Shown here piece after piece: positions 1,032 to 29,548 of a stretch of DNA of 64,000 nt (its first letter is position 1; every line of letters starts with the position of its first letter). The stretch lies in assembly GCF_026151205.1 (NCBI RefSeq), contig NC_087074.1, positions 20,676,765-20,740,764 of the forward strand, given 5' to 3'. A program made the translations under genes and the position numbers. This stretch comes from Bolinopsis microptera. Lineage: Eukaryota; Ctenophora; Tentaculata; Lobata; Bolinopsidae. Under the pieces are notes generated by a model. It was not told the origin of the DNA and searched no databases. It saw only the letters and a list, made by a program, of their open reading frames with translations.

Positions 1032-1222
1032 GTATTTGCTGTTATTGCAACAAAAGATTTAGCACAAAAGGGAATCTGAACAAACATGTTGCTTCCATCC
1101 ACCTCAACGTAAAGCCTTTCAAGTGTCATGGATGTCAGCAGAGATTTTCTCAAAGAGTTCACCTCAAAGTTCACATAGAACGGGCTCAGCGGAACGGGGC
1201 GTGCTTCATAAAATATTCATAG
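1032..1222 (+). CDS. alternative terminal zinc-finger exon A
   Basis: A terminal exon of a probable sequence-specific DNA-binding protein. It begins after GACTCCAG with two bases completing a split codon, then runs open to TAG. First finger: CCYCNKRF then H-x4-H, classical C2H2. Second finger: CHGCQQRF, His in LKVH, and a Cys nine residues later (ERAQRNGAC), so C-x2-C-x12-H-x9-C. The linker VKPFKC is typical of C2H2 tandems. There is no upstream start codon of its own, so it should be spliced to a shared 5' region that lies left of this window. Most similar to exon B. The function of the parent protein is inferred from architecture only. Confidence 0.8.
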
Positions 1223-1758
1223 AAATATCTTTGAACACGACGCTAAAAACACTACTGTTCAGAATCAGAGTAATGTCATTAATTTTGTTTAGTTTGTTTG
1301 ATATTGAATGCAATTGAAGTTATGCTCTGCTAAATGGTGGTTTTTGATGAGTTCTGAACGTCGTTGTTAGATTAATCTGGTTTTAGATGGAATAAGATTG
1401 GAATATGCATAAGATTAGGAATTTCCGATTTAATTCTGAAATATCCATTCTTAATAATTTCTTAATGAATATTTAAGACAAGATCAAATGTTGACTTTCA
1501 AAATTGCTAAGTTATTGGAAATAAATGATTCACTTTGTTTTCGGTGCTGCACCAAATTGAATGTATGTTTTTATCTATATTTTTGGTATGACATGGCCTT
1601 ATGGTACAATAATATAAAGGTGTTTAATTTGTATATTTCAAAATTTAACAATGACAAAAACTTACTGATAATTAATTAGTGATCTTTAAGGATATGTTTT
1701 TTAAAGTAACAAGAAATTTTTGCAATTTCAAATACATAATATAATTACTTCTTCTCAG
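1223..1758. other. intron-like AT-rich spacer
   Basis: AT-rich sequence between exons A and B. It contains an AATAAA near 1518 that could serve as the poly(A) signal of exon A. Nothing else recognised. Confidence 0.5.
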
Positions 1759-1952
1759 ATATCACTACTTGTCGGTATTGCAACAAGAGGTTCAGTCACA
1801 GAGGAAATTTGAACCAACATGTGGCGACAATCCACCACAAGGTCAAGCCCTTCCAGTGTAACTGGTGCCATCAGAGGTTCTCACAGAGGATTACCCTCAG
1901 GATACACATGGAAAGGTCTGAGAAGAACGGGAGCTGCTACATCAAGAAGTGA
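1759..1952 (+). CDS. alternative terminal zinc-finger exon B
   Basis: Begins after CTTCTTCTCAG and enters the frame in the same phase as exon A (AT, then ATC ACT ACT). It encodes finger 1 CRYCNKRF...H-x4-H and finger 2 CNWCHQRF with His in LRIH and a Cys nine residues on (MERSEKNGSC), ending KK-stop. Residues shared with exon A (RGNLNQHV, HKVKPF) show that the two arose by duplication. Longer open frames that cross this exon in other frames are shadows. Confidence 0.82.
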
Positions 1953-2320
1953 TTTACATTCCTTTAATTATATTATATATTCTTTTAATTATATATATTA
2001 TACATATTTATCAGAACATAAGTTATGCCACTTTTTGTTTTTAAAATAATTAGCAAGATCTCAGCGACCTGTAACAATTTTAAGAGATAAGGATGGGTAG
2101 TGTTTTATGGGCCACCCTGTATATATGATGCTTTTTAGAATTAGGTTTGATATTAATTTGGACTTACCGCAAAATATGTGATCAGTCCCTTTCTCGGATG
2201 AAATATTAACAAGAATGATAGATTTCACAACAAATGTAAATTAGTTAAAAAGAACACTTTTCGATCAATTGAACCCTATTATTCACACCGATGACGCAAA
2301 TTATAATTGTCCCCTTGCAG
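1953..2320. other. spacer between zinc-finger exons B and C
   Basis: AT-rich, no gene. It starts with a short repeat of TTTAATTATAT and ends in a good polypyrimidine/AG acceptor (CCCCTTGCAG) for exon C. Confidence 0.5.
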
Positions 2321-2577
2321 GTAAACACGACTTAGATTCAGCGAAGAGTTTAGAAGCGGTATCGTGTCCACTCTGCTACAAAGTGATCAGCAACAGAAGG
2401 AACCTAAAGCTACACATCAAGCGTGTCCACCAAAGGGACAAACCATTCCAATGTTCCAAGTGTCATCAGAAGTTTTCCCAGAGACACCATCTCAGAGACC
2501 ATGAGAATAGGTCGGAGAAGAGGGGGTATTGTTATGTTATGGCAAGAAAACAGGAGACACCATCTCAGAGACCATGA
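2321..2577 (+). CDS. alternative terminal zinc-finger exon C with triplicated 3' end
   Basis: Starts after CCCCTTGCAG in the shared phase (GT, then AAA CAC GAC). Finger 1 is CPLCYKVISNRRNLKLH with H-x4-H; finger 2 is CSKCHQKFSQRHHLRDH followed by the RSEKRGYC tail (H-x9-C). The last 73 bp of coding sequence are tandemly triplicated (copies start at about 2481, 2554 and 2627). Because 73 is not a multiple of three, the present frame ends early as ETPSQRP-stop inside copy 2. With a single copy the exon would end KQDER-stop near 2711, which looks ancestral. The fingers themselves are intact. Confidence 0.82.
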
Positions 2578-2699
2578 GAATAGGTCGGAGAAGAGGGGGT
2601 ATTGTTATGTTATGGCAAGAAAACAGGAGACACCATCTCAGAGACCATGAGAATAGGTCGGAGAAGAGGGGGTATTGTTATGTTATGGCAAGAAAACAG
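2481..2699. repeat. 73-bp tandem triplication of exon C 3' end
   Basis: Three near-identical 73-bp copies covering the finger 2 tail and the C-terminal coding sequence of exon C, each able to encode the HHLRDH...GYC segment in a different reading frame. Confidence 0.95.
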
Positions 2700-2711
2700 G
2701 ATGAACGATGA

Positions 2712-3058
2712 ATGTTGATAACAGTTTAGCCGAAATACAGCCAGATAAACATTAAACGTATTATGAAATATTATAACAGTATCTGCAAGAAATTTCGTTA
2801 AGATGTGGACCGTTCTGCACTTTCAAAAAATAAAAATTCTCGCGCACGACAGTCGGTAAATTACCAATCTACCATGAAAGTTTAAACGCGATATTAACCC
2901 GAATGTCAATATATTTAATTCACAGATTCATCAGTCAGCATGTTCTATGCAGTGAATAAATTGATGATATAAACGTTCTAAAGTGCTAAAAATATGGTAG
3001 AACTACATAATCTCTGGTCGAAAAATATCGTGTCAATTAATGTCAGTATTCCAAAATT
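2712..3058. other. spacer, no gene seen
   Basis: AT-rich sequence between exon C and the decamer minisatellite. It contains AATAAA near 2828, a possible poly(A) signal for exon C. Confidence 0.5.
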
Positions 3059-3060
3059 TT

Positions 3061-3350
3061 GCAAAACTGACATTGACATTAATTGACATTAATTGACATT
3101 AATTGACATTAATTGACATTAATTGACATTAATTGACATTAATTGACATTAATTGACATTAATTGACATTAATTGATATTAATTGACGTTAATTGACATT
3201 AATTGACATTAATTGACATTAATTGACGTTAATTGACATTAATTGATATTAATTGACGTTAATTGACATTAATTGACATTAATTGACGTTAATTGACATT
3301 AATTGACATTAATTGACGTTAATTGACATTAATTGACATTAATTGACGTT
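3061..3350. repeat. 10-bp minisatellite (ATTAATTGAC)
   Basis: About 29 head-to-tail decamers with scattered ACA-to-ACG and ACA-to-ATA variants, ending just before the splice acceptor of exon D. Confidence 0.97.
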
Positions 3351-3362
3351 GCATCACCCCAG

Positions 3363-3604
3363 ATTCATCAGACAGCATGTTCTCTGCAGCATGTCCCCTG
3401 TGCAACAAAGTACTGAGCTCTAAGTACAAGGTTAAAGTGCACATTAAGAGGGTTCACCAGGGTGAGAAACCTCACAGGTGCTCCAAATGCCTCAAACCCT
3501 TCAGTCAAAAACATCATCTGAAGGATCACGAGGCAAGATCAGAAAAGAGGGGGTACTGTTTACATTCCATACGCATGGAGTTTATGTCTACCAACAATGA
3601 ATAA
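3363..3604 (+). CDS. alternative terminal zinc-finger exon D
   Basis: Acceptor GCATCACCCCAG, then AT TCA TCA GAC: the shared phase. Finger 1 CPLCNKVLSSKYKVKVH with H-x4-H; linker EKPHRC; finger 2 CSKCLKPFSQKHHLKDH and tail ARSEKRGYC (H-x9-C). Ends STNNE-stop. The acceptor directly abuts the decamer minisatellite, which has replaced the usual polypyrimidine tract, so splicing efficiency may be affected. Confidence 0.8.
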
Positions 3605-3621
3605 TTAAGATGAGATCAATG

Positions 3622-3698
3622 GTGCATGACAACACATGACAACACATGACAACACATGACAACACATGACAACACATGACAACACATGACAACACACT
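3622..3698. repeat. 10-bp minisatellite (ATGACAACAC)
   Basis: About seven copies of a decamer immediately downstream of the exon D stop codon. Confidence 0.93.
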
Positions 3699-4326: not shown

Positions 4327-4622
4327 AATTAAAGTTTAGGTTGAGCCCAACGAGAAATGAGTCGAGTCAGCCGAAAAGTCATCCGAGAACCGGCCCTGGG
4401 TTTGAGGCGCCGTGTCCTCACTGTGATAAAATCCTCAGCAACAAATGGAACCTGAAGCAGCACATCAACGTGGTGCACAAGCGGGCCAAACCATTCGGGT
4501 GCCCCAAATGTGGGAGATGTTTCTCTTTGCGACATCACCTGAAAGTTCATGTTGAGAACTCCGAACTGAAGGGGAATTGTTTCGTCAAATATCCTGCTGG
4601 GAATAAGTACACCTGGGAATAA
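4327..4622 (+). CDS. alternative terminal zinc-finger exon E
   Basis: Acceptor CTATTTCGCAG, then AA TTA AAG TTT: the shared phase, open throughout. Finger 1 CPHCDKILSNKWNLKQH with H-x4-H; linker AKPFGC; finger 2 CPKCGRCFSLRHHLKVH and tail ENSELKGNC (H-x9-C). Ends KYTWE-stop. The 67 bp from about 4556 to the stop, covering the finger tail and C-terminus, are the founder sequence of the 2.5 kb minisatellite that follows. Confidence 0.85.
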
Positions 4623-7040
4623 GAACTCCGAACTGAAGGGGAATTGTTTCGTCAAATATCCTGCTGGGAATAAGTACACCTGGGAATAAGAACACCGAAC
4701 TGAAGGGGAATTGTTTCGTCAAATATCCTGCTGGGAATAAGTACACCTGGGAATAAGAACACCGAACTGAAGGGGAATTGTTTCGTCAAATATCCTGCTG
4801 GGAATAAGTACACCTGGGAATAAGAACACCGAACTGAAGGGGAATTGTTTCGTCAGATATCCTGCTGGGAATAAGTACACCTGGGAATAAGAACACCGAA
4901 CTGAAGGGGAATTGTTTCGTCAAATATCCTGCTGGGAATAAGTACACCTGGGAATAAGAACACCGAACTGAAGGGGAATTGTTTCGTCAAATATCCTGCT
5001 GGGAATAAGTACACCTGGGAATAAGAACACCGAACTGAAGGGGAATTGTTTCGTCAAATATCCTGCTGGGAATAAGTACACCTGGGAATAAGAACACCGA
5101 ACTGAAGGGGAATTGTTTCGTCAAATATCCTGCTGGGAATAAGTACACCTGGGAATAAGAACACCGAACTGAAGGGGAATTGTTTCGTCAGATATCCTGC
5201 TGGGAATAAGTACACCTGGGAATAAGAACACCGAACTGAAGGGGAATTGTTTCGTCAAATATCCTGCTGGGAATAAGTACACCTGGGAATAAGAACACCG
5301 AACTGAAGGGGAATTGTTTCGTCAAATATCCTGCTGGGAATAAGTTCACCTGGGAATAAGAACTCCGAACTGAAGGGGAATTGTTTCGTCAAATATCCTG
5401 CTGGGAATAAGTACACCTGGGAATAAGAACACCGAACTGAAGGGGAATTGTTTCGTCAAATATCCTGCTGGGAATAAGTTCACCTGGGAATAAGAACTCC
5501 GAACTGAAGGGGAATTGTTTCGTCAAATATCCTGCTGGGAATAAGTACACCTGGGAATAAGAACACCGAACTGAAGGGGAATTGTTTCGTCAAATATCCT
5601 GCTGGGAATAAGTACACCTGGGAATAAGAACACCGAACTGAAGGGGAATTGTTTCGTCAAATATCCTGCTGGGAATAAGTACACCTGGGAATAAGAACAC
5701 CGAACTGAAGGGGAATTGTTTCGTCAAATATCCTGCTGTGAACAGGTAAACCTGGGAATAAGAACACCGAACTGAAGGGGAATTGTTTCGTCAAATATCC
5801 TGCTGGGAATAAGTACACCTGGGAATAAGAACTCCGAACTGAAGGGGAATTGTTTCGTCAAATATCCTGCTGGGAATAAGTACACATGGGAATAAGAACT
5901 CCGAACTGAAGGGGAACTGTTTCGTCAAATATCCTGCTGTGAACAGGTAAACCTGGGAATAAGAACTCCGAACTGAAGGGGAATTGTTTCGTCAAATATC
6001 CTGCTGGGAATAAGTACACCTGGGAATAAGAACTCCGAACTGAAGGGGAATTGTTTCGTCAAATATCCTGCTGGGAATAAGTTCACCTGGGAATAAGAAC
6101 ACCGAACTGAAGGGGAACTGTTTCGTCAAATATCCTGCTGTGAACAGGTAAACCTGGGAATAAGAACTCCGAACTGAAGGGGAATTGTTTCGTCAAATAT
6201 CCTGCTGGGAATAAGTACACCTGGGAATAAGAACTCCGAACTGAAGGGGAATTGTTTCGTCAAATATCCTGCTGTGAACAGGTAAACCTGGGAATAAGAA
6301 CACCGAACTGAAGGGGAATTGTTTCGTCAAATATCCTGCTGGGAATAAGTACACCTGGGAATAAGAACTCTGAACTGAAGGGGAATTGTTTCGTCAAATA
6401 TCCTGCTGTGAACAGGTAAACCTGGGAATAAGAACACCGAACTGAAGGGGAATTGTTTCGTCAGATATCCTGCTGGGAATAAGTACACCTGGGAATAAGA
6501 ACACCGAACTGAAGGGGAATTGTTTCGTCAAATATCCTGCTGGGAATAAGTACACCTGGGAATAAGAACTCCGAACTGAAGGGGAATTGTTTCGTCAGAT
6601 ATCCTGCTGGGAATAAGTACACCTGGGAATAAGAACACCGAACTGAAGGGGAATTGTTTCGTCAAATATCCTGCTGGGAATAAGTACACCTGGGAATAAG
6701 AACTCCGAACTGAAGGGGAATTGTTTCGTCAAATATCCTGCTGGGAATAGGTACACCTGGGAATAAGAACACCGAACTGAAGGGGAATTGTTTCGTCAAA
6801 TATCCTGCTGGGAATAAGTACACCTGGGAATAAGAACACCGAACTGAAGGGGAATTGTTTCGTCAAATATCCTGCTGGGAATAAGTTCACCTGGGAATAA
6901 GAACACCGAACTGAAGGGGAACTGTTTAGTCAAATATCCTGCTGGGAATAAGTACACCTGGGAATAAGAACACCGAACTGAAGGGGAATTGTTTCGTCAA
7001 ATATCCTGCTGGGAATAAGTACACCTGGGAATAAGAACTC
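4556..7040. repeat. 67-bp minisatellite derived from exon E, 37 copies
   Basis: The unit begins GAACTCCGAACTGAAGGGG and ends at the exon E stop (GGGAATAA). First and last unit starts (4556 and 7035) are 2,479 bp apart, exactly 37 x 67, so no unit has gained or lost a base overall. Variants (GAACACC versus GAACTCC; GTGAACAGGTAAAC versus GGGAATAAGTACAC) recur in scattered units, suggesting conversion or unequal exchange. Each unit carries stop codons, so it is not an extension of the protein. Confidence 0.97.
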
Positions 7041-7346
7041 CGAACGACAATAATAGTTCAGTTTGGTTACGTTGTTTATGATATTCTAAGGATTTAGTCA
7101 AATTGATAGGATTTTGATGGTATTGTACTACTCTATTTTGTTTTTGGGATAAATTTGTAAGAATATTATTAATTAGGGTTTAGTAAGTCGACGAATGTAC
7201 GGTTTTTCATGATACAAATTACTCATTACTGTTGAGGTATTTTCACAAGTGACAGCGATTATCATTTACTGATCATCATCCTGCATCGATCGTTCAAATA
7301 TTTATAAAGTCCCTTCGTTGGCAACGTGCAAAGTTCTAACCTCCCC
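7041..7346. other. spacer between two minisatellites
   Basis: About 300 bp of AT-rich unique sequence with no gene recognised. Confidence 0.5.
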
Positions 7347-10300
7347 TCTGTCACACGGCTCATTGTCACACGGTCTACTGTCACACGGCTCACTGTCACA
7401 CGGCTCACTGTCACACGGCTCACTGTCACACGGCCCACTGTCACACGGCCCACTGTCATACGGCTCACTGTCACACGGCTCACTGTCACACGGCTCACTG
7501 TCACACGGCTCACTGTCACACGGCTCACTGTCACACGGCTCACTGTCACACGGCCCACTGTCACACGGCTCACTGTCACACGGCTCACTGTCACACGGCT
7601 CACTGTCACACGGCTCACTGTCACACGGCTCACTGTCACACGGCTCACTGTCACACGGCTCACTGTTACACGGTCTACTGTCACACGGCTCACTGTCACA
7701 CGGCTCACTGTCACACGGTCTACTGTCACACGGCTCACTGTCACACGGCTCACTGTCACACGGCTCACTGTCACACGGCTCACTGTCACACGGCCCACTG
7801 TCACACGGTATACTGTCACACGGCTCACTGTCACACGGCTCACTGTCACACGGCTCACTGTTACACGGTCTACTGTCACACGGCTCACTGTCACACGGTC
7901 TACTGTCACACGGCTCACTGTCACACGGCTCACTGTCACACGGCTCACTTTCACACGGCTCACTGTCACACGGCTCACTGTCACACGGCTCACTGTCACA
8001 CGGCTCACTGTCACACGGCTCACTGTCACACGGCTCACTGTCACACAGCCCACTGTCACACGGCTCACTGTCACACGGTCTACTGTCACACGGCTCACTG
8101 TCACACGGTCTACTGTCACACGGCTCACTGTCACACGGTCTACTGTCACACGGCTCACTGTCACACGGCTCACTGTCACACGGCTCACTGTCACACGGCT
8201 CACTGTCACACGGCTCTCTGTCACACGGTCTACTGTCACACGGCTCACTGTCACACGGCTCACTGTCACACGGCTCACTGTCACACGGCTCACTGTCACA
8301 CGGCCCACTGTCACACGGTATACTGTCACACGGCTCACTGTCACACGGCTCACTGTCACACGGCTCACTGTTACACGGTCTACTGTCACACGGCTCACTG
8401 TCACACGGTCTACTGTCACACGGCTCACTGTCACACGGCTCACTGTCACACGGCTCACTGTCACACGGCTCACTGTCACACGGCTCACTGTCACACGGCT
8501 CACTGTCACACGGCTCACTGTCACACAGCCCACTGTCACACGGCTCACTGTCACACGGTCTACTGTCACACGGCTCACTGTCACACGGCTCACTGTCACA
8601 CGGCTCACTGTCACACGGTCTACTGTCACACGGCTCACTGTCACACGGCTCACTGTCACACGGCTCACTGTTACACGGCTCACTGTCACACGGCTCACTG
8701 TCACCCGGTATACTGTCACACGGCTCACTGTCACACGGCTCACTGTCACCCGGTCTACTGTCACACGGTCTACTGTCACACGGCCCACTGTCACACGGCC
8801 CACTGTCACACGGCCCACTGTCACACGGCTCACTGTCACACGGTCTACTGTCACACGGCTCACTGTCACACGGCTCACTGTCACACGGCTCACTGTCACA
8901 CGGTCTACTGTCACATGGCTCACTGTCACACGGCTCACTGTCACACAGTCTACTGTCACACGGCTCACTGTCACACGGCCCACTGTCACACGGCTCACTG
9001 TCACCCGGTCTACAGTCACACGGTCTACAGTCACAAGGCTCACTGTCACACGGCTCACTGTCACACGGCTCACTGTCACACGGCTCACTGTCACACGGCT
9101 CACTGTCACACGGTCTACTGTCACACGGCTCACTGTCACACGGCTCACTGTCACACGGTCGACTGTCACACGGCTCACTGTCACACGGTCTACTGTCACA
9201 CGGCTCACTGTCACACGGCTCACTGTCACACGGCTCACTGTCACACGGTCTACTGTCACACGGCTCACTGTCACACGGTCTACTGTCACACGGCTCACTG
9301 TCACACGGCTCACTGTCACACGGCTCACTGTCACACGGCTCACTGTCACACGGCTCACTGTCACACGGCTCACTGTCACACGGCCCACTGTCACACGGTC
9401 TACTGTCACACGGTCTACTGTCACACGGCTCACTGTCACACGGCTCACTGTCACACGGCTCACTGTCACACGGCCCACTGTCACACGGCCCACTGTCACA
9501 CGGCTCACTGTCACACGGCTCACTGTCACACGGTCTACTGTCACACGGCTCACTGTCACACGGCTCACTGTCACACGGCTCTACTGTCACACGGCTCACT
9601 GTCACACGGTCTACTGTGACACGGCTCACTGTTACACGGCCCACTGTCACACGGCTCACTGTCACACGGCTCACTGTGACACGGCTCACTGTCACACGGC
9701 TCACTGTCACACGGCTCACTGTTACACGGTCTACTGTCACACGGCTCACTGTCACACGGCTCACTGTCACACGGCCCACTGTCACACGGCTCACTGTCAC
9801 ACGGCTCACTGTCACACGGCTCACTGTCACACGGCTCACTGTCACACGGCTCACTGTCACACGGCTCACTGTCACACGGCTCACTGTCACACGGCTCACT
9901 GTCACACGGCTCACTGTCACACGGCTCACTGTCACACGGCCCACTGTCACACGGCTCACTGTCACACGGCTCACTGTCACACGGCTCACTGTCACACGGC
10001 TCACTGTCACACGGCTCACTGTCACACGGTCTACTGTCACACGGCTCACTGTCACACGGTCTACTGTCACACGGCTCACTGTCACACGGCTCACTGTCAC
10101 ACGGCTCACTGTCACACGGTCTACTGTCACACGGTCTACTGTGACACGGCTCACTGTTACACGGCCCACTGTCACACGGCTCACTGTCACACGGCTCACT
10201 GTGACACGGCTCACTGTCACACGGCTCACTGTCACACGGCTCACTGTTACACGGTCTACTGTCACACGGCTCACTGTCACACGGCTCACTGTCACACGGC

Positions 10301-13300: not shown

Positions 13301-13570
13301 CTCACTGTCACACGGCTCACTGTCACACGGCTCACTGTCACACGGCCCACTGTCACACGGTCTACTGTCACACGGCTCACTGTCACACGGCTCACTGTCA
13401 CACGGCTCACTGTCACACGGTCTACTGTCACACGGCTCACTGTCACACGGCTCACTGTCACACGGCTCACTGTCACACGGCTCACTGTCACACGGATCAC
13501 TGTCACACGGTCTACTGTCACACGGCTCACTGTCACACGGCTCACTGTCACACGGGTCACTGTCACACGG
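7347..13570. repeat. 15-bp minisatellite (CACACGGCTCACTGT), about 415 copies
   Basis: A 6.2 kb array of one 15-bp unit with a few recurrent variants (GGTCTACTGT, GGCCCACTGT, GGTATACTGT). Because the period is a multiple of three and the unit lacks stop codons in most frames, very long open frames appear on both strands (pentapeptides such as GSLSH, VTRLT, CHTAH, SRVTV and DSEPC). These are artefacts of the repeat. Occasional single-base shifts (for example GGCTCTACTG near 9580, 12563 and 12895) move the frames together. It lies between zinc-finger exons E and F. Confidence 0.97.
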
Positions 13571-13592
13571 CCGTCGGCTTCATACATTGTCA

Positions 13593-14036: not shown

Positions 14037-14728
14037 GTTTTATTAATCGCAGAAAGACTACTGGCCCAGCTCAAACAAGTATTGACCCGTTTGCAGAAAG
14101 CTTCAGGCTAATAAAATGTCCGATTTTAAACTGCAACAAAACTCCCTCGGTTACAAAAGAGAAGAGAATACGAGTGACACACCTAGTTACCCCCTAGTTA
14201 CCACCTAGTTACCACCTAGTTACCACCTAGTTACCACCTAGTTACTCAACATTTACTTAAACAACCGAGACTCCCTCGGTTACAAAAGAGAAGAGAATAC
14301 GAGTGACACACTATCACTGTCCGTTTTGTTGTTACAGCAAGCACCGTCTCACTAGGGTACTGAAGCACGTGAAGCGGTGTTACATCAAGAAGCTGAGACG
14401 AAATGACAAGAGTAGGACTAGTCAGTGTACGTGTGAGGTGTGTTCTGGAGTTGGGGCTGGTGATTCCTGTTCCCGGGGGTGGAGACCATGTAGGGAGAGA
14501 AAGGAAGGTTGTAAATCTGAGCAGCGTTTGCATTACCACTGCACCAAGTGTCAAGATTACACTGCACTTGACAGACGACGTGTGGAGAAACATTACGCTA
14601 AATGTTATAAATCCAGTGAAGTTCCTGAACCATCTCCTGGTAATGGTATCGGACATGGTAACCATGGTAATGGTATCCCTGGTAATGGTATCGGACATGG
14701 TCATTATACGAGGGGCACTCAGATGTAG
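14037..14728 (+). pseudogene. zinc-finger exon F, interrupted by a minisatellite insertion
   Basis: Acceptor TTATCGCAG, then GT TTT ATT AAT: the shared phase. The frame runs to about 14,182, where a 129-bp insertion brings a TAG stop (14,195-14,197). The insertion consists of an 11-bp CTAGTTACCAC minisatellite flanked by a 42-bp direct duplication (14,141-14,182 and 14,270-14,311). Since 129 is 43 codons, the original frame resumes after it and encodes a different kind of finger: CPFCCYSKHRLTRVLKH followed by C (C-x2-C-x12-H-x3-C), a Cys-rich stretch (CTCEVC), and a second CTKCQDYTALD...KHYAKC finger, ending in a GNGIGHG-rich tail. As it stands the exon would give only a short finger-less end unless the stop is bypassed. 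Confidence 0.72.
14183..14311. repeat. 129-bp insertion: 11-bp minisatellite plus 42-bp duplicated flank
   Basis: Six or so CTAGTTACCAC units followed by a second copy of the preceding 42 bp of coding sequence, so the exon sequence itself behaves like a long target-site duplication around the repeat. Confidence 0.9.
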
Positions 14729-14737
14729 CTGGAACTT

Positions 14738-16190: not shown

Positions 16191-16437
16191 GAGTGGACGA
16201 TTGTATGAAGAGATCTCGTGTTCCTCAGACGGCCCAGACTGCTTGCCCCCACTGTTCTAAGATGCTGTGCTCTAAGAGCCTCAATAGGCACATCAACACA
16301 GTCCACCGAAAACCAAGCCATATCTGTGCCCAAAGTGCTTGCAGTCGTTCGCTATGAAGCATCACCTTCATAACCATCTGGTCAAAGCTGAGAAAAATGG
16401 ATTTTGTGCTAGAATCCGCCCGAGACACTTTACCTAG
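16191..16437 (+). pseudogene. zinc-finger exon G, frameshifted
   Basis: Acceptor AAACTTCAG, then GA GTG GAC GAT: the shared phase. Finger 1 reads CPHCSKMLCSKS-LNRHINTVH and lacks one residue before LNRH compared with its relatives. After VHRK the frame is lost: finger 2 (CPKCLQSFAMKHHLHNH and tail VKAEKNGFC, H-x9-C) lies in a frame that needs one extra base at about 16,311. The end of the exon (ACCTAGCTTGCTAG) is the start of a dispersed repeat also seen at 28,630. It is either a decayed exon or an assembly indel; two separate defects favour decay. Confidence 0.7.
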
Positions 16438-16520: not shown

Positions 16521-17030
16521 AAAGACACTGAGACAGTAGGGGCCGCATTCAATGCTTCACGACTTCTTAACATATGTTATGAACATATGGCAGATTAGAA
16601 TTTCGTGAGAATATTAAGAGATTGTGAACATTTTCAAGACATTGGTGGGAATTTGATTATGAATTTTGAAAGTCTCGATCGACGATCAGTAACTTACTTA
16701 ATCGCCATTCAATTTAAAATGGGAATGTGTTATGAAGTGGGAATATTATGAATTTTAACACTTTTTAATCCATTTGTCAGCCTATTTCAATTTTCAACTG
16801 ACTTTTACATTTAACACCTCTGAACGGATTGGATCATTAGCTATTTAGAGAATTCTCTGGTTTGTCAGTAGCTATTTAGAGAATCCTCTGGTTTGTCAGT
16901 AGCATCAATGATGAAGGTCGGGGTCGATATCTAATGAACCAATATTTCAAACAAAATACAATTTGGCTGTTGAAGTGTTGGGTACTTCACTAATATCAGG
17001 AGTTTCAAACCTTGAAAATGAGAATTTCAG
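16521..17030. other. spacer before exon H
   Basis: AT-rich; contains a direct repeat of AGCTATTTAGAGAAT...CTCTGGTTTGTCAGT at about 16,840-16,900. No gene. Confidence 0.5.
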
Positions 17031-17269
17031 AAGAGAGAAAAGCTGGGAACTCTGACCAGGCCCAATGCCCACATTGTCCCAAGGTTCTTTTCCACATGAG
17101 CAACCTACGAAGACATATCCGAACGATCCACCTTCAAGCTAAGCCGTTTGTGTGCCACAAGTGTAAGCAGTCCTTCTCGATGGGGCACCATCTCCGTGGT
17201 CATCTCGCTCGGTCTGAGAGGAAGGGACAGTGCTACATAATGGCTAGAAATAGCAATAAAACGTTGTGA
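17031..17269 (+). CDS. alternative terminal zinc-finger exon H
   Basis: Acceptor GAGAATTTCAG, then AA GAG AGA AAA: the shared phase. Finger 1 CPHCPKVLFHMSNLRRH with H-x4-H; linker AKPFVC; finger 2 CHKCKQSFSMGHHLRGH and tail ARSERKGQC (H-x9-C). Ends NSNKTL-stop. Nearly identical to exon I over both fingers, so this pair is a recent tandem duplication. An ATG upstream of the acceptor is in frame but is not needed if the exon is spliced. Confidence 0.85.
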
Positions 17270-18003: not shown

Positions 18004-18239
18004 AGTCCGATGAGAGGAAAGCACTTGACCAGGTCCAATGTCCTCATTGTCCCAAGTTGCTCTGCAGTATGGGCAACCTAAGGAGACACATCAAAGCAGT
18101 CCACCTCCAGGCTAAACCGTTCCTGTGCCACAAGTGTAAGCAGTCCTTCTCGATGCGACACCATCTTCGAGATCATCTCGCTCGTTCTGAGAGGAAGGGA
18201 CAGTGCTACATAATGGCCAGAAACTTCAAAAATAAGTGA
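18004..18239 (+). CDS. alternative terminal zinc-finger exon I
   Basis: Acceptor CTACTTTTTCAG, then AG TCC GAT GAG: the shared phase. Finger 1 CPHCPKLLCSMGNLRRH with H-x4-H (KAVH); linker AKPFLC; finger 2 CHKCKQSFSMRHHLRDH and tail ARSERKGQC (H-x9-C). Ends ARNFKNK-stop. Sister of exon H; the differences sit mainly in finger 1, the residues that would change DNA specificity. Confidence 0.87.
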
Positions 18240-18825: not shown

Positions 18826-19163
18826 ATAACGGTAACTCTTCTTCACAAATTTCTGGATGGAACTCTGGCATTCCTTCTCAAGGACGACGTATTCGTGCTG
18901 GTCCCTTTGCTTGCCCTCAATGTGACAAACTTCTGAGCACCAAAGGGAACCTCAAACAACACATCAACATGGTGCACAAGCGGGAGAAGCCCTTCCAGTG
19001 TGATCTGTGCAAGAAGTGCTTCTTCTTACGGAGTCATCTGAAGCGGCATCTTGTTCGCTTCCAGATAAACGGGACCTGTGCGAGGCGAGGTCAGAGGATT
19101 GATGATTTTCCTGTTACCTTGGTTATATTGCCGGAAGGTCCTACCAATCCTAATATAGTCTGA
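18826..19163 (+). CDS. alternative terminal zinc-finger exon J
   Basis: Acceptor GTATTATTTTCAG, then AT AAC GGT AAC: the shared phase. A Ser/Gly-rich leader of about 25 residues precedes finger 1 (CPQCDKLLSTKGNLKQH, H-x4-H, NMVH); linker EKPFQC; finger 2 CDLCKKCFFLRSHLKRH with the Cys nine residues on (LVRFQINGTC). The C-terminal tail (about 25 residues, ending NPNIV) is longer than in the sister exons. The exon spans the full frame from acceptor to TGA. Confidence 0.85.
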
Positions 19164-19509: not shown

Positions 19510-19836
19510 GAGAAGATATCCAATACCCAGTAACATGAACAGTACAGAGTTTCCACCAAATATTCCAAAAGGAATACAACAGAACCACTACTCACTCTCA
19601 CCTTCAGACAGAATCTTACCCTTGTGGTCACTGCGGCAAGCCCTTCAGTACAAAGGGGAACCTAAAACAGCACATCAGCACAGTACATCTGCAGATAGCG
19701 CCCTTTCAGTGCCACAAATGTAGACAGATTACAGAATTTCTCTACTCGGCAGACCCTAGAGAGGCATTTGGCGAGATCAGAGAATAAAGGGGCTTGCCAT
19801 TCTAAAAAGTCCAAAGATTACTATCAGCGAAGGTAG
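19510..19836 (+). pseudogene. zinc-finger exon K, broken by a 7-bp insertion
   Basis: Finger 1 (CGHCGKPFSTKGNLKQHISTVH) and the start of finger 2 (CHKCRQ) are readable from about 19,612. The frame then shifts: after CAG there are seven extra bases (ATTACAG, about 19,729-19,735). Beyond them, another frame resumes FSTRQTLERH and tail ARSENKGAC (H-x9-C) to a TAG at 19,834. In the current frame the exon stops at 19,785-19,787. If splicing uses the TTACAG at 19,509, the shared phase also runs into TGA quickly; an acceptor at CTTCAGACAG (19,611) restores the shared phase. It is best seen as a decayed member. Confidence 0.68.
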
Positions 19837-20728: not shown

Positions 20729-20912
20729 TCAGTTATCCTACCTAACGTGACGTGTTTCAATTTTCCAAAGGTTAAATTTCAGACATTAATAAAGCATAGG
20801 AAAAACAGTAAAACTAAGGTTTTGATTATTCAAATCGAAATTTCGTCAAAAAAATGTATCATTTAGATAAAGTTGTGTCAAGTAAATTATCCTAAAATTC
20901 CAAACTTTTGAG

Positions 20913-21205
20913 ATAGATACCAACCTCCTGGGAGGTGCCCGTTCTGCGACAAAGCAATTGGAAGACGGCACGACCTCAAGAGGTACATCCTAAACATTCA
21001 CCAGCACGTCAAGCCCTTTCAGTGTGAGAGTTGCAAACAAACCTTTGCACGGCGACACCACCTTCATAGCCACCAGAGGAAGTCTCGAGTCGTCGGGTTT
21101 TGTCGGGGCCGCCCTCCCGCTGAGGATAAAGATTCATGGTACACTACTAGTTACCATAGTTACACCACTAGTTACCATAGTTACACTACTAGTTACATGG
21201 TATGA
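20913..21205 (+). CDS. alternative terminal zinc-finger exon L, with repeat-derived tail
   Basis: A weak acceptor (CAAACTTTTGAG) gives the shared phase (AT AGA TAC CAA). Finger 1 is CPFCDKAIGRRHDLKRYILNIH: the first zinc-binding His is replaced by Tyr (KRY), so this finger is probably impaired. Finger 2 CESCKQTFARRHHLHSH and tail RKSRVVGFC (H-x9-C) are intact. The C-terminus is encoded by an ACTAGTTACCATAGTTAC minisatellite and reads as repeated YTTSYHS. The suboptimal acceptor and the lost ligand suggest an exon in decline, but the frame is open. Confidence 0.7.
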
Positions 21206-22185: not shown

Positions 22186-22451
22186 ACTTTTTGCTACGAA
22201 GCAGCGGTGGTGTCCCCGTCGGTGAACAATGTCCTTACTGCACCAAGATGATCAGTAGCCGATCCAACCTCAAGAAACACATCCGGTCCATCCACCAGCA
22301 ACTCCGTCCGTTCCAGTGTGGAGACTGTAAGCAGACCTTTGCACATCACCATCATCTTAAGGCTCATCGGAAGGCGGCGGAGAGGAAGGGAAGGTGTTTT
22401 CCTAACCGCAAGACTCCTGATGATCCACTGAAATTCCTGTTTCTGGAGTAG
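22186..22451 (+). CDS. alternative terminal zinc-finger exon M
   Basis: Acceptor CTCCCTATTTCAG, then AC TTT TTG CTA: the shared phase. Finger 1 CPYCTKMISSRSNLKKH with H-x4-H (RSIH); linker LRPFQC; finger 2 CGDCKQTFAHHHHLKAH and tail RKAAERKGRC (H-x9-C). Ends KFLFLE-stop. The last 75 bp or so and the following sequence are duplicated once downstream (22,480-22,554). Confidence 0.86.
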
Positions 22452-22554
22452 TAATAGGGGGACTGGGGAGGGTAGTAATGTTTTCCTAACCGCAAGACTC
22501 CTGATGATCCACTGAAATTCCTGTTTCTGGAGTAGTAATAGGGGGACTGGGGAG
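22397..22554. repeat. direct duplication of exon M 3' end
   Basis: TTTTCCTAACCGCAAGACTC through GGGGGACTGGGGAG occurs twice in tandem (22,397-22,470 and 22,480-22,554). Confidence 0.9.
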
Positions 22555-23711: not shown

Positions 23712-24130
23712 GCTCTGCAAAACACACGGCCTCTCCCTGGCCCTATACCACTGGAAGCGGTAGTACCAGTACCGCTACCTTTGCTCAGTGTACCACGTGC
23801 GGACAACAACTCAGTTGCTCGGGAGCACTGAGGAGACACGTGAAGCTTGTTCACCTCAAACAGAAGGACTTCGTGTGCAAGTACTGCAGCCGCGCATTCA
23901 GCACGTGCAGCAACATGAAGAAACACGTGCAGACCATGCATATCGACTACAGACCATTCAAGTGCTTCTTCTGCGATAAGACGTTTAAGAAGCCCCACAG
24001 TCTGAACTCTCACATGTTTACAGAACATGGAGGTAAACGTGTTTCTTCTGAGCAGTGGGATGAGTTGCGGAGGATTGAGATGCAGATGAAGGGAGGTAAT
24101 CAGAGTTCCTCCAACGTGAATACGGACTAA
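23712..24130 (+). CDS. alternative terminal zinc-finger exon N (three C2H2 fingers)
   Basis: Acceptor AACGTTATTTTCAG, then GC TCT GCA AAA: the shared phase. After a Ser/Thr-rich leader come three classical fingers: CTTCGQQLSCSGALRRH-x4-H, CKYCSRAFSTCSNMKKH-x4-H and CFFCDKTFKKPHSLNSH-x4-H, then a 35-residue tail ending NVNTD. It lacks the H-x9-C finger of exons A-M, and the SCxxALxRHVKxVHLxQ finger resembles exons O and P, so it belongs to a second subfamily of the array. It is the largest intact exon of the set. Confidence 0.87.
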
Positions 24131-24731: not shown

Positions 24732-25454
24732 ATGAGACGAGTGATATCGCTGGATTCTACTGGCACCCTCTTAAACATATCCAAATCAGTTGGACACCAG
24801 TACCTCCGAATCTTAGATAGCTTCTTTCCCGGTTCCCTCTCTGCCCAAGATAAAACACTCCTGACTAAAGAATTCAATGTAAACATGCCCCTACATTACA
24901 AGGAGGCTCTCAAGAAGAATCCCAATTTTGGACATGGTAGTATAGGGGTTTATGAATGGTGGAAAGGGCTAGTTCGGCAGCTCTACCTGTCCTCTCACAT
25001 CGACATGAAGGATTACCAGTTTTCTCTTCTCTTTGACGACACTTACAATCAGTTCAGGACGACAAACTGTTGGGACATGTACCCGGAAACAATCCCAGTT
25101 CTTGAGGAGATCCAGGCTCGTGGTATTGATGTGGTGGTTACCAGTGATTTCGATGTGGGTCTTGTGAATATTCTCCGACAACACGGACTGTTTAAACCTG
25201 ATGACATCTCCAGCTCTCTTGTCAAAGAGGTGATCACCTCCTATGAGCAGGGTCTTGCTAAGCCGGACCTTCTCAAGTTGGTGAAAGAGAAATGGGACAT
25301 TACTGTGCACGTGGGGGACAGTTACGAGAGAGATGTGGTGGGGGCTGAGAAAATAGGGGTGTTGCCCATTTTTGTAGATAGGGGGAACAGTGGCATTTGT
25401 AAACTTCACCCTTCCGTTCAGACGTTATCAGGGATTTTAGATTATATCAAGTGA
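24732..25454 (+). CDS. hdhd3: HAD-superfamily hydrolase, HDHD3-like, intronless
   Basis: A single-exon, 240-residue protein of the haloacid dehalogenase superfamily. Its length (human HDHD3 is 251) and its landmarks match HDHD3: an N-terminal strand with LDSTGTLL (motif I, residues 7-14), a cap with NFGHGSIGVYEWW, motif II VVTSDFD (about 136-142), the motif III lysine in AKPDLLK, and motif IV VHVGDSYERDVVGA. In motif I the usual second Asp (DxD) is absent (D-S-T), as in human HDHD3 (D-V-K), so ordinary phosphatase chemistry is doubtful; the substrate is unknown for the family. ATG at 24,732 is the first in frame and directly precedes the motif I strand. It lies within the zinc-finger exon array on the same strand, between exons N and O, so it is nested in an intron of that locus for isoforms using later exons. 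Confidence 0.88.
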   Translation: MRRVISLDSTGTLLNISKSVGHQYLRILDSFFPGSLSAQDKTLLTKEFNVNMPLHYKEALKKNPNFGHGSIGVYEWWKGLVRQLYLSSHIDMKDYQFSLLFDDTYNQFRTTNCWDMYPETIPVLEEIQARGIDVVVTSDFDVGLVNILRQHGLFKPDDISSSLVKEVITSYEQGLAKPDLLKLVKEKWDITVHVGDSYERDVVGAEKIGVLPIFVDRGNSGICKLHPSVQTLSGILDYIK

Positions 25455-25788: not shown

Positions 25789-25994
25789 GGCCCAAGATCC
25801 ATCACCGCTGTGGTGAATGTGGCAAAATGCTGAGCTGCCGGGCTGCTCTGGGTAGGCACATCAAAGTGGTGCACCTCCGGCAGAAGAAGTGGCAGTGTCA
25901 GTTCTGTGACAAACTGTTCGGCCAAAACTCTGATAGGATAATCCACGAGAATAGGAACCACGGAGTGCAAGTGGCGGGATATTTTGAGAATTAG
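25789..25994 (+). CDS. alternative terminal zinc-finger exon O
   Basis: Acceptor CACTTGTCTCAG, then GG CCC AAG ATC: the shared phase. Finger 1 CGECGKMLSCRAALGRH with H-x4-H (KVVH); linker LRQKKWQC; finger 2 CQFCDKLFGQNSDRIIH with H-x4-H (ENRNH). Ends AGYFEN-stop. Both fingers are classical C2H2, resembling the finger pairs of insect Broad in spacing. It is almost a duplicate of exon P. Longer open frames on the opposite strand here are shadows. Confidence 0.85.
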
Positions 25995-26443: not shown

Positions 26444-26637
26444 GTGACCACGTGTTGAGTCACTCATGTCAAACTTGTGGTAAGATACTGAGCTGCAAAG
26501 CGGCACTCATCAGACATGTTAAAGTAGTGCACCTTAGACAGAGAAACTTTGTCTGTAGACACTGCGGCAAGCCGTTCGGACAGAACTCCGATAGGATCAT
26601 TCACGAAAACTCTGTCCATTCTAAGACTGATAACTGA
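26444..26637 (+). CDS. alternative terminal zinc-finger exon P
   Basis: Acceptor CTATTTTCCCAGCAG, then GT GAC CAC GTG: the shared phase. Finger 1 CQTCGKILSCKAALIRH with H-x4-H (KVVH); linker LRQRNFVC; finger 2 CRHCGKPFGQNSDRIIH with H-x4-H (ENSVH). Ends SKTDN-stop. It shares AALxRHxKVVHLRQ and GQNSDRIIHEN with exon O. Confidence 0.86.
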
Positions 26638-27171: not shown

Positions 27172-27376
27172 AGCTGAGATCGACAACGTGCGAACAATGT
27201 GGTCTAACGCTAAGTACGAAACAAGCCCTAACAAGACATATCAGAGTAGTACACCACCGAATCAAGATGGGTCACGTGATGCCCATATAAGGAGTGTCAA
27301 ATGTCGGTACTGCAGCAGAGCGTACAGACACCTCCATGAACAGAACCGTCATCGCAACACTCAATCACGTCGCTGA
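27172..27376 (+). pseudogene. zinc-finger exon Q, split by a 26-bp insertion
   Basis: In the shared phase (AG, then CTG AGA TCG) finger 1 reads CEQCGLTLSTKQALTRH with H-x4-H (RVVH) and runs to a stop at 27,288-27,290. Finger 2 (CRYCSRAYRHLHEQNRH) and the terminal stop at 27,376 lie in another frame. The two frames are separated by 26 bp (27,269-27,294) that recur exactly at 29,052-29,077; without them finger 1 and finger 2 would be joined by a seven-residue linker of normal length. The exon as present yields only one finger. Confidence 0.72.
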
Positions 27377-28627
27377 AAAAGAAATAACTGTGGACCATAA
27401 TAGTTGTAGTATCCATATTTAGTTTTGATGATTTGTTTTTAGAACGAACTTTTTACTTTTTACTCTAATACGATTGACTGTCAGTGCATCACATGCTCAA
27501 ATGAGCTGGGATCAAAAGATATGGTGTATTAATGAATGTGCAGTGATTAACTTTTAGAACACATGAAAGATTTTTATCAAAATGCACAAAACATTACAGC
27601 TCACGATTAATGGCGAAAATATTCTACTAAGGTCCGCAACATTTTTCGGCGGAACAATGAATATATATATTCTTCCAGCTAGTGCCAGTGGCTTTGCAGA
27701 ACCCGACGGGTTTGACGCGGAATTCACTTCAAAATTTTCTCTGTTGACTCCGGCAGTCAAGCTTATATTATTACGTTCACCCAAAATTATCACATTTTGG
27801 TTTATACTGCAGATGGACAAAACGGTTTTTACAAAACCCTAACCATAACCCCGAAACTAGTCATAACCGGAACCCTAACGTGTAACGGCCCTAACGGTAA
27901 CCCATAAAAATCGAATACAGAATACGCGTTTTACCAGCCTGTCACGTTCAACAAAAACACCTTTTTGTTAATAACTCCCCAGATAACTTCCCACATAACC
28001 CCCATAACTTCCCTTACAGGGACGCATTTTAACATAACATTAACCTTTCGTCATGGAGGGTGATTCTGAATCAGCGTCCAAAAATACATCGACCGTAATT
28101 ATTTGTATATCCACAGGGGGCAGGGCCCTCTTACAAGATATAAAAAATTGTCGAGCGATTTAGTGGGAGTGCTTGACTCATATCCTATTTACAATTAAAC
28201 TTTACTCCGGCCTTGGATCATTATATTTTAGTTTATGAGGTTCCGTTGACGCGAAATCTGTCAGTCGGAGACAAACCCGCACGCACCTGACGATTTAATG
28301 AGTCAGCCGTAGGATCTGCGGTTAGAATTTTGAGTTCGTCAAAAATTAATCCTGCGAACCCTTGATAGTACTGTGTACCAATTCACATAGCCAATAAAGC
28401 CATGTGCCTTCTGGGCTCTGGTTAGAGCAACTATGTACCAGAACTAACCATTTTTAGACAAATATATCATCGGCGTCATATTAAAACAAAATTAGAAGTT
28501 TCGACCCACAATCGGACAATCCTGTTACATTAAGTACTAGTACAGAGGGAGCAAATCACTATAATGTTAATAAATTAAGTAATTATCCCAGAAATGAGTA
28601 AGGCGTCACTTAACATTATTATTAGTA
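27377..28627. other. long spacer, no gene seen
   Basis: About 1.25 kb without a supported gene. At 27,836-27,905 there is a degenerate run of CCCTAACC/CATAACC-like words. The remainder is unique AT-rich sequence. Confidence 0.5.
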
Positions 28628-28945
28628 TTACCTAGCTTGCTAGGTTATTGCTTGCTTCTCTCACGTAATCGCAAGACTAGAAGCTCGAAAAGAGCACCAC
28701 GCATACTCATAGGGATAATAGGCACGCCTGGTAGTGGTAACACTTAGTAGTAGTTTTTAAACTAGTAACACACTACTTACTTACACACTACTCACACACC
28801 ACGCATAGGGATAATAGGCACGCCTGGTAGTGGTAACACTTAGTAGTAGTTTTTAAACTAGTAACACACTACTTACTTACACACTACTCACACACCACGC
28901 ATAGGGATAATAGGCACGCCTGGTAGTGGTAACACTTAGTAGTAG
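28628..28945. repeat. dispersed repeat copy 2 and 96-bp tandem repeat
   Basis: The stretch at 28,630-28,700 is related to 16,432-16,520. It leads into about 2.5 copies of a 96-bp unit beginning CACCACGCATAGGGATAAT and containing GTAACACTTAGTAGTAG. Confidence 0.85.
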
Positions 28946-29019
28946 TACGGAAATTTTAAGGGTCAATTTCTCGACGATTGTGTTTCCAGTTTCCAATTTT
29001 ATTAAAACTAACTGCCCAG

Positions 29020-29124
29020 GTTTGGAGGCGCTCCAGCTCGCTGATGACTACGGGTCACGTGATGCCCATATAAGGAGGTTTGAAGCTTTTGGAGATATAG
29101 ACCCTGGCTCCGCAGCAAATGGAG
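29020..29124 (+). CDS. possible internal exon R of the zinc-finger locus
   Basis: A 105-bp open segment between an acceptor (AACTGCCCAG) and a donor (GGAG then GTTAGT). It enters in the shared phase and leaves in the same phase, so it could be spliced between the common region and exon S without changing frame. The peptide (LEALQLADDYGSRDAHIR, then FEAFGDIDPGSAANG) has no recognised domain. It contains the 26 bp found also in exon Q. It is a prediction only; it could equally be chance. Confidence 0.4.
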
Positions 29125-29333
29125 GTTAGTACCTAAATCTAGGATTCTCTATGCGCTATGGCAATTTATAAAAATTATCATCTGAAAACAGAAAACGTGC
29201 AATCAGGGATTCTAAGTGGGGCAACTTTTCAAACCCCCCTCCCGGACAACCTTACACAATGTCAAATGTGTCCCTAAACTATCTCTTGAAGTTGCCACAG
29301 TAGCTAAGACGATGAATAATAAAACCTCTTCAG

Positions 29334-29548
29334 GACCAGGCAAACACGACGTATCAGAACGCTCCTGTCAGCTTTGTGGGAAGATATTCACGAAGAAATG
29401 CGACTTAAAGCGGCACATAAACCAGGTACACTTGAAACTGCGACCCTACAAATGTGATCAGTGCTACGCCAGCTTCCCTCGGAGACCTCAGCTCAGAGCT
29501 CATATTGTCAAGCATCATGAGTCCGTCACTTCGGATGCAAACGATTGA
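29334..29548 (+). CDS. alternative terminal zinc-finger exon S (last of the array)
   Basis: Acceptor AAACCTCTTCAG, then GA CCA GGC AAA in the shared phase; a second AG six bases on (GACCAG) keeps the same phase, so either may be used. Finger 1 CQLCGKIFTKKCDLKRH with H-x4-H (NQVH); linker LRPYKC; finger 2 CDQCYASFPRRPQLRAH with H-x4-H (VKHH). Ends TSDAND-stop. The leader GKHDVSER resembles exon C (GKHDLDSAK). No further finger exon is seen before the convergent ACADM gene. Confidence 0.85.

Follow-up and report, generated by a model that had tools for sequence, protein, structure and literature searches.

What are eighteen zinc-finger frames doing side by side in a ctenophore genome? The question is raised by a stretch of 64,000 nucleotides of Bolinopsis microptera (Ctenophora), hereafter the window, in which 18 such frames, all on the + strand, span positions 1032-29548. 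A preliminary description of this DNA had regarded them as alternative 3'-terminal exons of one gene resembling lola and mod(mdg4) of insects. Our results lead us to consider the window as the 3' part of a very large transcription-factor gene, LOC134813369, in which common exons are spliced to one of about 115 candidate terminal exons, and which would put out a protein family with a common N-terminus and many different DNA-binding ends; to this whole explanation we give a probability of about 0.94. RefSeq lists the gene of this array as an uncharacterized protein, the names of its proteins give no function, and the array is described in none of the titles and abstract openings listed by searches of the ctenophore literature.

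Exons of the window and extent of the array

The features are as follows, where a slash marks the splice site.

1032..1222, +, terminal exon A (C2H2 and C2HC finger), acceptor CCAG/GT, own stop
1759..1952, +, terminal exon B, acceptor TCTCAG/AT
2321..2577, +, terminal exon C, acceptor TTGCAG/GT, 3' part recurring in a tandem repeat of 73 bp (2481-2701)
3363..3604, +, terminal exon D, acceptor 3363 (CCCAG/AT) or 3390 (TGCAG/CA), either leaving two bases
4327..4622, +, terminal exon E, acceptor TTCGCAG/AA, 3' end expanded to 7045 by a 67-bp repeat
14037..14728, +, exon F, C2HC-like fingers by eye, probable acceptor ATCGCAG/GT
16191..16431, +, exon G, reading frame broken, the second finger lying in a different frame (16309-16431)
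17031..17269, +, terminal exon H, weak acceptor ATTTCAG/AA, assigned by aligning the exon to I
18004..18239, +, terminal exon I, acceptor TTTTCAG/AG
18826..19163, +, terminal exon J, acceptor TTTTCAG/AT
19612..19800, +, exon K, frame-broken past the first finger
20913..21205, +, exon L, His to Tyr in the first finger (zinc ligand lost), weak acceptor
22186..22451, +, terminal exon M, acceptor TTTCAG/AC, 3' end present twice (repeat of 84 bp, 22395-22554)
23712..24130, +, terminal exon N (three fingers), acceptor TTTTCAG/GC
24732..25454, +, unrelated HAD-hydrolase gene in one open frame, PF00702 at E 1.6e-10, protein P0001 95% identical
25789..25994, +, terminal exon O, acceptor TCTCAG/GG
26444..26637, +, terminal exon P, acceptor CCCAGCAG/GT (or 26441)
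27172..27376, +, exon Q, frame broken by insertion of a segment that R1 has too
29020..29124, +, exon R1, internal to the last isoform (RefSeq X6, P0011), acceptor CCCAG/GT, donor GGAG/GTTAGT
29334..29548, +, terminal exon R (R2), the last finger exon of the array, acceptor TCTTCAG/GA

When all 18 finger frames were compared with the whole window by tblastn (E up to 0.05), the - strand gave no match, in agreement with the earlier view that every finger exon lies on the + strand, and the sequence past exon R on the right gave none either. The earlier inventory is right in its 18 frames; it omitted R1, and about 5 of the 18 exons are damaged (G, K and Q frame-broken, F interrupted by an 11-bp repeat beside a duplicated flank, L altered), hence about 13 look intact. 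Exon F has no match in Pfam, exons H and I are 80-83% identical, and a full-length protein search for exon I with a length scaffold gave 6 candidates, of which 0 were scored. The HAD-hydrolase gene sits in the gap from exon N to exon O and shares the strand of the array. Minisatellites arise from exon ends in the window, and an Rfam scan of the window at gathering scores gave no match.

The window is only the tail of a larger array, of which it holds the last eighteen ends. This array keeps to one strand for about 126 kb (C3:20,580,449-20,706,309), and a pattern search revealed 113 zinc-finger frames on C3, 16 of them inside the window, where the pattern missed G and L. The former count of at least 18 exons therefore holds and is an understatement, even before a second array on C10 is added.

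Splice phase and the common exons

The preliminary description had relied on splice phase, holding that essentially every acceptor leaves two bases before the first whole codon and that such a match by chance was very unlikely. Within the window, the best-scoring AG leaves two bases in 13 of the 18 frames, the exceptions being G, H, K, L and Q (for H, the best-scoring AG at 17000 leaves 0). The test is far stronger over the whole C3 array, where the best AG, scored blind with an untrained acceptor matrix as in the window, leaves two bases in 99/112 frames, 0 in 10 and 1 in 3. With AGs drawn at random from the heads of these frames, the mean is 69.4 and the maximum 85 (5000 draws). For frames with at least three AGs of mixed phase the figure is 70/83, against a null mean of 41.5 and a maximum of 56, and the YYYCAG sites of the array fall into phases 0/1/2 as 8/4/83. 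Thus the array is phase-locked and a chance match is indeed unlikely. The other phase of the best AG in 13/112 frames counts against our explanation. One more C3 finger frame beyond the 112 has no AG. A selector motif ahead of the acceptors was sought in 99 exons, and no strong k-mer appeared.

The common exons, which had been expected left of the window, were found there. Four of them, belonging to LOC134813369, lie at C3:20,573,027-20,575,868, and the last ends at C3:20,575,868 in ...CCA A/GTAAGA, the phase-1 donor that had been looked for. Their translation is identical over 373/373 residues to the RefSeq isoforms X15, X8, X5 and X6, which are machine models. The tails of X15, X8 and X5 map to array exons at 20,585,551, 20,610,866 and 20,587,019, and that of X6 is R1 plus R2 of the window, 130 kb downstream, so that four isoforms use four array exons, one of them in the window, and the reading as alternative 3'-terminal exons of one gene is borne out. 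A fifth array exon is represented in P0007 (472 aa), where the common part is joined on a 1,496-base contig to the counterpart, identified by eye, of an array exon that lies about 43 kb past the hub; the junction residue is A+TC = Ile as the phase predicts, and since the two parts stand together on a contig of 1.5 kb, spliced RNA exists. The P0008 cluster has 27 member sequences. Altogether five array exons only are confirmed in the proteins read (P0007-P0011).

These proteins also bear on whether each finger exon might be a separate small gene with a trans-spliced leader as its 5' end. We consider this very improbable, because the RefSeq proteins and P0007 carry the common part, because so strict a phase lock speaks against it, and because no more than 15/111 frames of the C3 array have an in-frame ATG in the interval from the chosen acceptor to the first Cys. 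In the window the claim that no exon needs its own ATG stands for 13 of the 18 frames, where no in-frame ATG precedes the first Cys; such an ATG is present in D, G, H, I and R.

The common part of LOC134813369 begins with a conserved module, FYxKQKxEFHFxQ..FLLDTAVRVISIVQHLAPV, which is split over exons 1-2 by a phase-1 intron, colinear in C3 and C10 and predicted to be helical; a long middle, predicted to be disordered and bearing KxE motifs, follows. The alignment of the module comprises 11 proteins, and its six named relatives are all ctenophore proteins. In the AlphaFold2 model of P0008 (11 rows, mean pLDDT 50), helices are placed at 15-27 and 35-66 with pLDDT about 63-81 by block, which suggests at low confidence that the N-terminus is all helical; the model is too weak for a fold search. 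A search for relatives of the module in the PDB gave one match, at E 0.12, taken as chance.

The module is not the BTB/POZ domain that had been anticipated. Pfam finds no BTB domain in the common part of P0008, and when the genome itself was searched for the BTB family (150/309 candidates scored), no match on the + strand near the locus is among the 148 listed; the nearest of these, in frames of 254-584 aa, are on the - strand and about 266 kb to the left of the window. A BTB exon just left of the window was accordingly rejected. FLYWCH was absent from the six array exons scanned and from P0008 and P0016. Shared 5' exons with alternative 3' finger exons do follow the logic of lola, according to passages of PMC1947980, yet the organism is a ctenophore and both BTB and FLYWCH are absent; the common-exon sequence thus rules out a lola or mod(mdg4) gene of insect type whose common part is a BTB one.

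Moreover, the module recurs at other loci. On C10 a paralogous hub, colinear with that of C3, has about 75 finger places together with helix-turn-helix (HTH, CCDC106-like) exons, and its last common donor, A/GTAAGT, has the same phase. In both loci finger exons were found only on the hub's own strand. A third hub gene, LOC134821797 (C10:11,558,0xx, -), has the same N-terminal module and a C2H2 terminal part, with two further finger frames, putatively linked, 9-11 kb downstream on the same strand. The module and a C2H2 terminal part are likewise present in ACHWQZ_G001731 of Mnemiopsis, which places the module in another ctenophore genus. Few endings are seen in these two, as compared with LOC134813369. 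One related protein has a SIX homeodomain.

Use of the exons and mode of joining

As to the mechanism, the single base A of the last common exon before GTAAGA would be spliced to one of the about 115 candidate terminal exons, which occupy some 126 kb right of the hub. Each of these would typically supply an acceptor of the TTTCAG type, the two bases that complete the split codon, a pair of zinc fingers and its own stop; in one case seen, the terminal exon would supply a CCDC106-like HTH instead of fingers.

Are these exons really in use? The array might mostly be a decaying graveyard of duplicated exons of which few are used, and the damage in G, K, Q, F and L, the minisatellites emerging from exon ends and the count of only five exons in the proteins read agree with this. 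Purifying selection on similar exon pairs argues against it: pN is below pS in 16/16 pairs with identity of at least 60%, and Ka/Ks is 0-0.21 in the 5 pairs with unsaturated Ks, with 0.12-0.21 for the four whose Ks is 0.7-1.5. We therefore regard a graveyard as quite unlikely, and most intact exons of LOC134813369 are probably used. The exons probably bind different DNA sites. The helix positions -1, 2, 3 and 6 are no more variable than other positions, though contact quadruplets differ in 133/155 cases. AATAAA/ATTAAA occurs within 300 nt behind the stop in 34/112 frames, as compared with 26% at random positions, and in the 300 nt ahead of the frame in 49/112, and AATAAA per 100 nt is near background. 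The motif, not clearly enriched behind stops, is no evidence for own poly(A) sites, and this counts against our explanation.

The choice of exon would be made through alternative splicing of a long pre-mRNA. The HAD-hydrolase gene, on the same strand between the hub and exons O-R, is awkward for a single simple pre-mRNA. Trans-splicing as in mod(mdg4) might act instead, whereby terminal exons, at least those past this gene, have own promoters and are joined to the hub transcript. In its favour, X6 uses R even though the HAD gene stands between N and O-R; PMC8527503 describes widespread spliced-leader trans-splicing for the ctenophore Hormiphora; and since the last base and phase are equal in the hubs of C3 and C10, joins between the loci would keep the frame. 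However, the finger exons found lie on the hub strand in both loci, as cis-splicing requires, and PMC8527503 also reports parallel nested genes inside introns of Hormiphora. On balance trans-splicing seems rather unlikely to us.

Comparison with lola and mod(mdg4)

To our knowledge, only insects are known to offer alternative terminal exons for DNA-binding domains in such masses, and Ctenophora branched off near the base of animals. Here the same logic is met in that phylum, with another common domain and in at least two loci, which raises the question of how a single donor picks one among more than 100 acceptors, some past another gene. The ctenophore nervous system is argued to have evolved separately, and it can therefore be asked whether the same molecular solution to cell diversity was reached twice. 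Fly lola regulates neuron identity and targeting (title of PMC1947980).

A wider scenario is that ctenophores, independently of insects, evolved a modular system in which a phylum-specific N-terminal module, present in several hubs, is spliced to about 190 candidate DNA-binding ends, with arrays possibly shared between hubs by trans-splicing; we put it forward tentatively, at somewhat less than an even chance. The candidate ends are C2H2 and CCDC106-like HTH, and the base and phase of the last donor are equal in the two hubs checked. If true, arrays serving both hubs via trans-splicing would provide a large combinatorial code for cell identity.

In Drosophila, lola has a common 5' part and alternative 3'-terminal exons, mostly zinc fingers, with at least 20 isoforms (PMC1947980, in part). 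Passages of PMC5000498 give about 180 alternates for Nasonia on one hub exon over 350 kb, with a median spacing of 1.4 kb, and 58 for Apis, each alternate having one or two 3' exons; the scale of the ctenophore array is comparable to these largest loci reported. LOC134813369 likewise has many 3'-terminal zinc-finger exons on shared 5' exons, the joining being seen in proteins for five, and its last isoform has two 3' exons. The variable exons of lola share one splice phase with the hub donor; those of LOC134813369 match theirs too, with 13/112 best AGs deviating. Inter-allelic trans-splicing is a further trait of lola. In contrast to lola, the ctenophore common part is without BTB and has a predicted helical N-terminus, the gene is from Ctenophora, HTH exons stand besides the fingers, and the N-terminal module is found at several loci, of which two have large arrays. 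The BTB of the Tramtrack group is called Arthropoda-specific in the title of PMC11426971.

As for mod(mdg4), parts of PMC4667647 and PMC12692577 describe common exons with dozens of alternative 3' exons in Diptera and Lepidoptera, and independent 3' transcripts. Common exons with many alternative 3' exons are shared by LOC134813369, whereas mod(mdg4) has BTB and, in most variable exons, a FLYWCH finger where the ctenophore gene has C2H2 fingers and no BTB, and its variable exons lie on both strands in several species while the ctenophore finger exons keep to one. Hence the likeness proposed at the outset is one of gene logic and not of kinship: LOC134813369 works like lola and mod(mdg4), yet is not a member of either, and its array looks like an independent invention of the trick known from insect lola.

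Zinc-finger exons and their acceptor phase

The preliminary description listed 18 or more plus-strand zinc-finger exons at 1032-29548 (bare positions are those of the window), each having an acceptor and a stop of its own. Eighteen finger frames were found, named A to R, all on the plus strand. When these were run by tblastn over the entire window (E up to 0.05), no minus-strand copy appeared, and R was followed by no further copy. In the ten of these 18 exons that were aligned, a C2H2 finger is followed by a C2HC finger, and 13 of the 18 have no in-frame ATG before the first cysteine. The two bases said to be left over between acceptor AG and first whole codon in essentially all exons hold for the best AG in 13 of 18, the exceptions being G, H, K, L and Q (acceptors were scored with an untrained matrix and no phase prior). 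The frame is broken in G, K and Q, exon F is split by an 11-bp repeat with a duplicated flank, L lacks one zinc ligand, and H was positioned by alignment to its close paralog I; therefore about 13 of the 18 look usable.

Several repeats accompany these exons. Three minisatellites each begin within the 3' coding end of an exon and copy that end: 2481-2701 in C (73 bp, 3 copies), 4555-7045 in E (67 bp, 37 copies) and 22395-22554 in M (84 bp, about 2 copies). A 26-base segment, GGGTCACGTGATGCCCATATAAGGAG, was recognized by eye in both Q (27269-27294) and R1 (29052-29077), the additional exon upstream of R; in Q it breaks the reading frame, and in R1 it forms part of the coding sequence. The 6.2-kb array of a 15-bp unit at 7348-13571 stays open in several reading frames, so naive finger searches match there. 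The right border of the exon array is formed by minus-strand frames at 30972-40355, namely an acyl-CoA dehydrogenase exon (PF00441) with further exons and an HTATSF1-like frame assigned by eye; beyond it, at 40977-54336, lie long open frames which by eye look like LINE-type reverse transcriptase/endonuclease.

To the left of the window (positions 20,676,765-20,740,764 of contig NC_087074.1, here C3), a long run of finger exons like those inside it continues in the adjoining 200 kb. When the 264.65-Mb assembly was searched with exon I, the 150 of 763 candidates that were scored included related frames on the plus strand along C3:20,581,834-20,706,279 and on the minus strand along C10:10,738,901-10,839,188 on another contig, together with weaker scattered matches elsewhere; on the minus strand of the 264 kb examined, none of 13 pattern matches was finger-like by eye. 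By pattern, 113 finger frames lie between C3:20,580,449 and 20,706,309, including a few partial or broken copies; 16 of them fall within the window, where G and L escaped the pattern. An AG occurs in the head of 112 frames, and the best one leaves two bases in 99, none in 10 and one in 3, with a median spacing of 757 bases between chosen acceptors. Random choice among AGs of the same heads (5000 draws) gave a mean of 69.4 and a maximum of 85, the mean being high because two-base AGs are over-represented there (322 of 620). Of the 83 frames whose heads contain three or more AGs not all in one phase, 70 leave two bases, against 41.5 (maximum 56) under the null, and YYYCAG sites leaving 0, 1 and 2 bases number 8, 4 and 83. 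Two further terminal exons were recognized by eye:

about C3:20,579,952: one-finger terminal exon, two left-over bases
about C3:20,619,627: helix-turn-helix terminal exon, two left-over bases (PF15794, CCDC106; E 5.8e-7, 30.0 bits against a cut-off of 30.2)

A gap within the array, C3:20,666,556-20,669,132, holds a long open frame with, by eye, a LINE-type reverse-transcriptase/endonuclease look.

In all 16 exon pairs of at least 60% identity, which are mostly array neighbours as expected from tandem duplication, pN is below pS, and Ka/Ks is 0-0.21 in the five pairs with unsaturated Ks (0.12 for the window pair H/I). The 155 fingers that have the simple C2-C-x12-H spacing show 133 different contact quadruplets (-1, 2, 3, 6), but variability at these four positions does not exceed that at the others; the claim is therefore one of different finger surfaces, not of specially diversified ones.

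Common exons and joined transcripts

Two left-over bases imply that a common exon must end one base into a codon. In a tblastx comparison, the DNA preceding the C3 array and that preceding the C10 array shared conserved pieces in colinear order, whose exon ends were fixed by eye from frame and splice signals:

C3:20,573,027-20,573,183: common exon 1, with ATG
C3:20,574,194-20,574,310: common exon 2
C3:20,574,674-20,575,460: common exon 3
C3:20,575,810-20,575,868: common exon 4 (last)
C10:10,849,218 down to 10,846,622: six common exons of the C10 locus

Thus the expected common exons with a phase-1 donor do lie to the left, and the BTB domain attributed to them is absent. The last donors (C3 ...AAC CCA A|GTAAGA; C10 ...AAT CCG A|GTAAGT) both leave one overhanging A in the predicted phase, so that the junction codon can never be a stop. 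At about C3:20,573,600-20,574,200, a row of about 62-bp copies repeats the acceptor and first codons of common exon 2, and the full exon follows only the last copy.

With region 1-100 of the joined common protein as query, 11 proteins were retrieved. Four are isoforms X15, X8, X5 and X6 of NCBI's "uncharacterized protein LOC134813369" of Bolinopsis microptera, a lobate ctenophore; the gene is therefore already in RefSeq, without a functional name. These are machine models; the translation of common exons 1-4, made before the comparison, agrees with each of the four at 373 of 373 residues. Their tails are as follows:

X15: array exon C3:20,585,551
X8: array exon C3:20,610,866 (the acceptor matrix had favoured another phase)
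X5: array exon C3:20,587,019 (a two-base site, different from the two-base site chosen by the matrix)
X6: last window exon R, via the additional exon 29,020-29,124

The four isoforms are cluster heads, the cluster of X15 having 27 member sequences. Separate from the RefSeq models, the protein P0007 (472 aa, from a 1,496-base contig) consists of the common part and the counterpart, matched by eye, of exon C3:20,618,613, with Ile at the junction as A+TC predicts. It carries sequence differences and so comes from another individual or species, and we infer that its contig must derive from spliced RNA, since the same pieces cover about 46 kb in the genome.

We propose that in each transcript the last common donor would be joined to one terminal exon (for R, a pair). 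In this way the shared N-terminal part, which probably mediates interactions, would receive one of many DNA-binding ends. Such joining is shown for five exons and most likely holds for the remaining ones. Neither an upstream motif common to the array acceptors nor a clear enrichment of AATAAA behind the array stops was found. A HAD-hydrolase gene (24732-25454, plus strand like the array) separates exon N from exon O, yet exon R, which lies beyond this gene, is used by X6; either the transcript passes through the gene, or R is trans-spliced. Trans-splicing of terminal exons such as R seems to us possible though rather unlikely. In the ctenophore Hormiphora, leader trans-splicing is common, and so are parallel nested genes (PMC8527503).

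Relatives of the common module

Exons 1-2 gave nine genome matches (E up to 1), which we read as seven places: C3, C10:10.85 Mb, two on C5, two further on C10 and one on C13. Two exons matched at each of the first two; one place on C5 (E 6e-4) and that on C13 (E 0.002) are weak. The place at C10:11,558,0xx is LOC134821797, which has a Mnemiopsis relative. Further exon-1-like modules, two of them weak, lie at:

C5:17,721,694
C5:6,454,144
C10:9,664,979
C13:8,458,134

Directly right of the C13 module there is a 442-aa frame with several fingers. Six of the 11 proteins retrieved with the common part are named relatives, five from Bolinopsis and one from Mnemiopsis. P0014 (ENA; longest contig 6,868 bases) carries a SIX domain and a homeodomain behind the N-terminal module, and hence the module is also combined with other DNA-binding domains.

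The C10 locus (10.74-10.85 Mb) has at least 75 distinct finger places in the union of two genome searches, and six matches to a helix-turn-helix exon, query counted (CCDC106, PF15794, E 1.3e-7). For 13 terminal exons scanned there, the best acceptor leaves 2, 0 and 1 bases in 10, 2 and 1. Four finger frames at C7:13,884,036-13,885,950 (plus strand) have the same scores and frame lengths as four at C10:10,797,919-10,799,804 (minus strand), which suggests a recent copy of an array piece on another chromosome.

Comparison with lola and mod(mdg4)

The picture of a locus built like insect lola, with BTB encoded on the left, does not fit this ctenophore genome in its domains: BTB and FLYWCH are absent from the scanned exons and proteins, the BTB matches listed for B. 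microptera lie elsewhere than at this locus, and a low-confidence model of the common part shows nothing but helices at the N-terminus. Among the listed titles and abstract openings on ctenophores or lola-type loci, a set with most subscription papers and preprints outside it, no description of such a locus in a ctenophore was found, and the words "zinc" and "isoform" are absent from the main text of PMC8527503. In the respective papers, fly lola is given at least 20 isoforms (PMC1947980), lola alternates number about 180 over 350 kb in Nasonia and 58 in Apis, non-hymenopteran insects not showing a similarly large expansion (PMC5000498), and fly mod(mdg4) has at least 31 (PMC4667647, PMC12692577). 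In its logic, this ctenophore gene comes nearest to lola and mod(mdg4).
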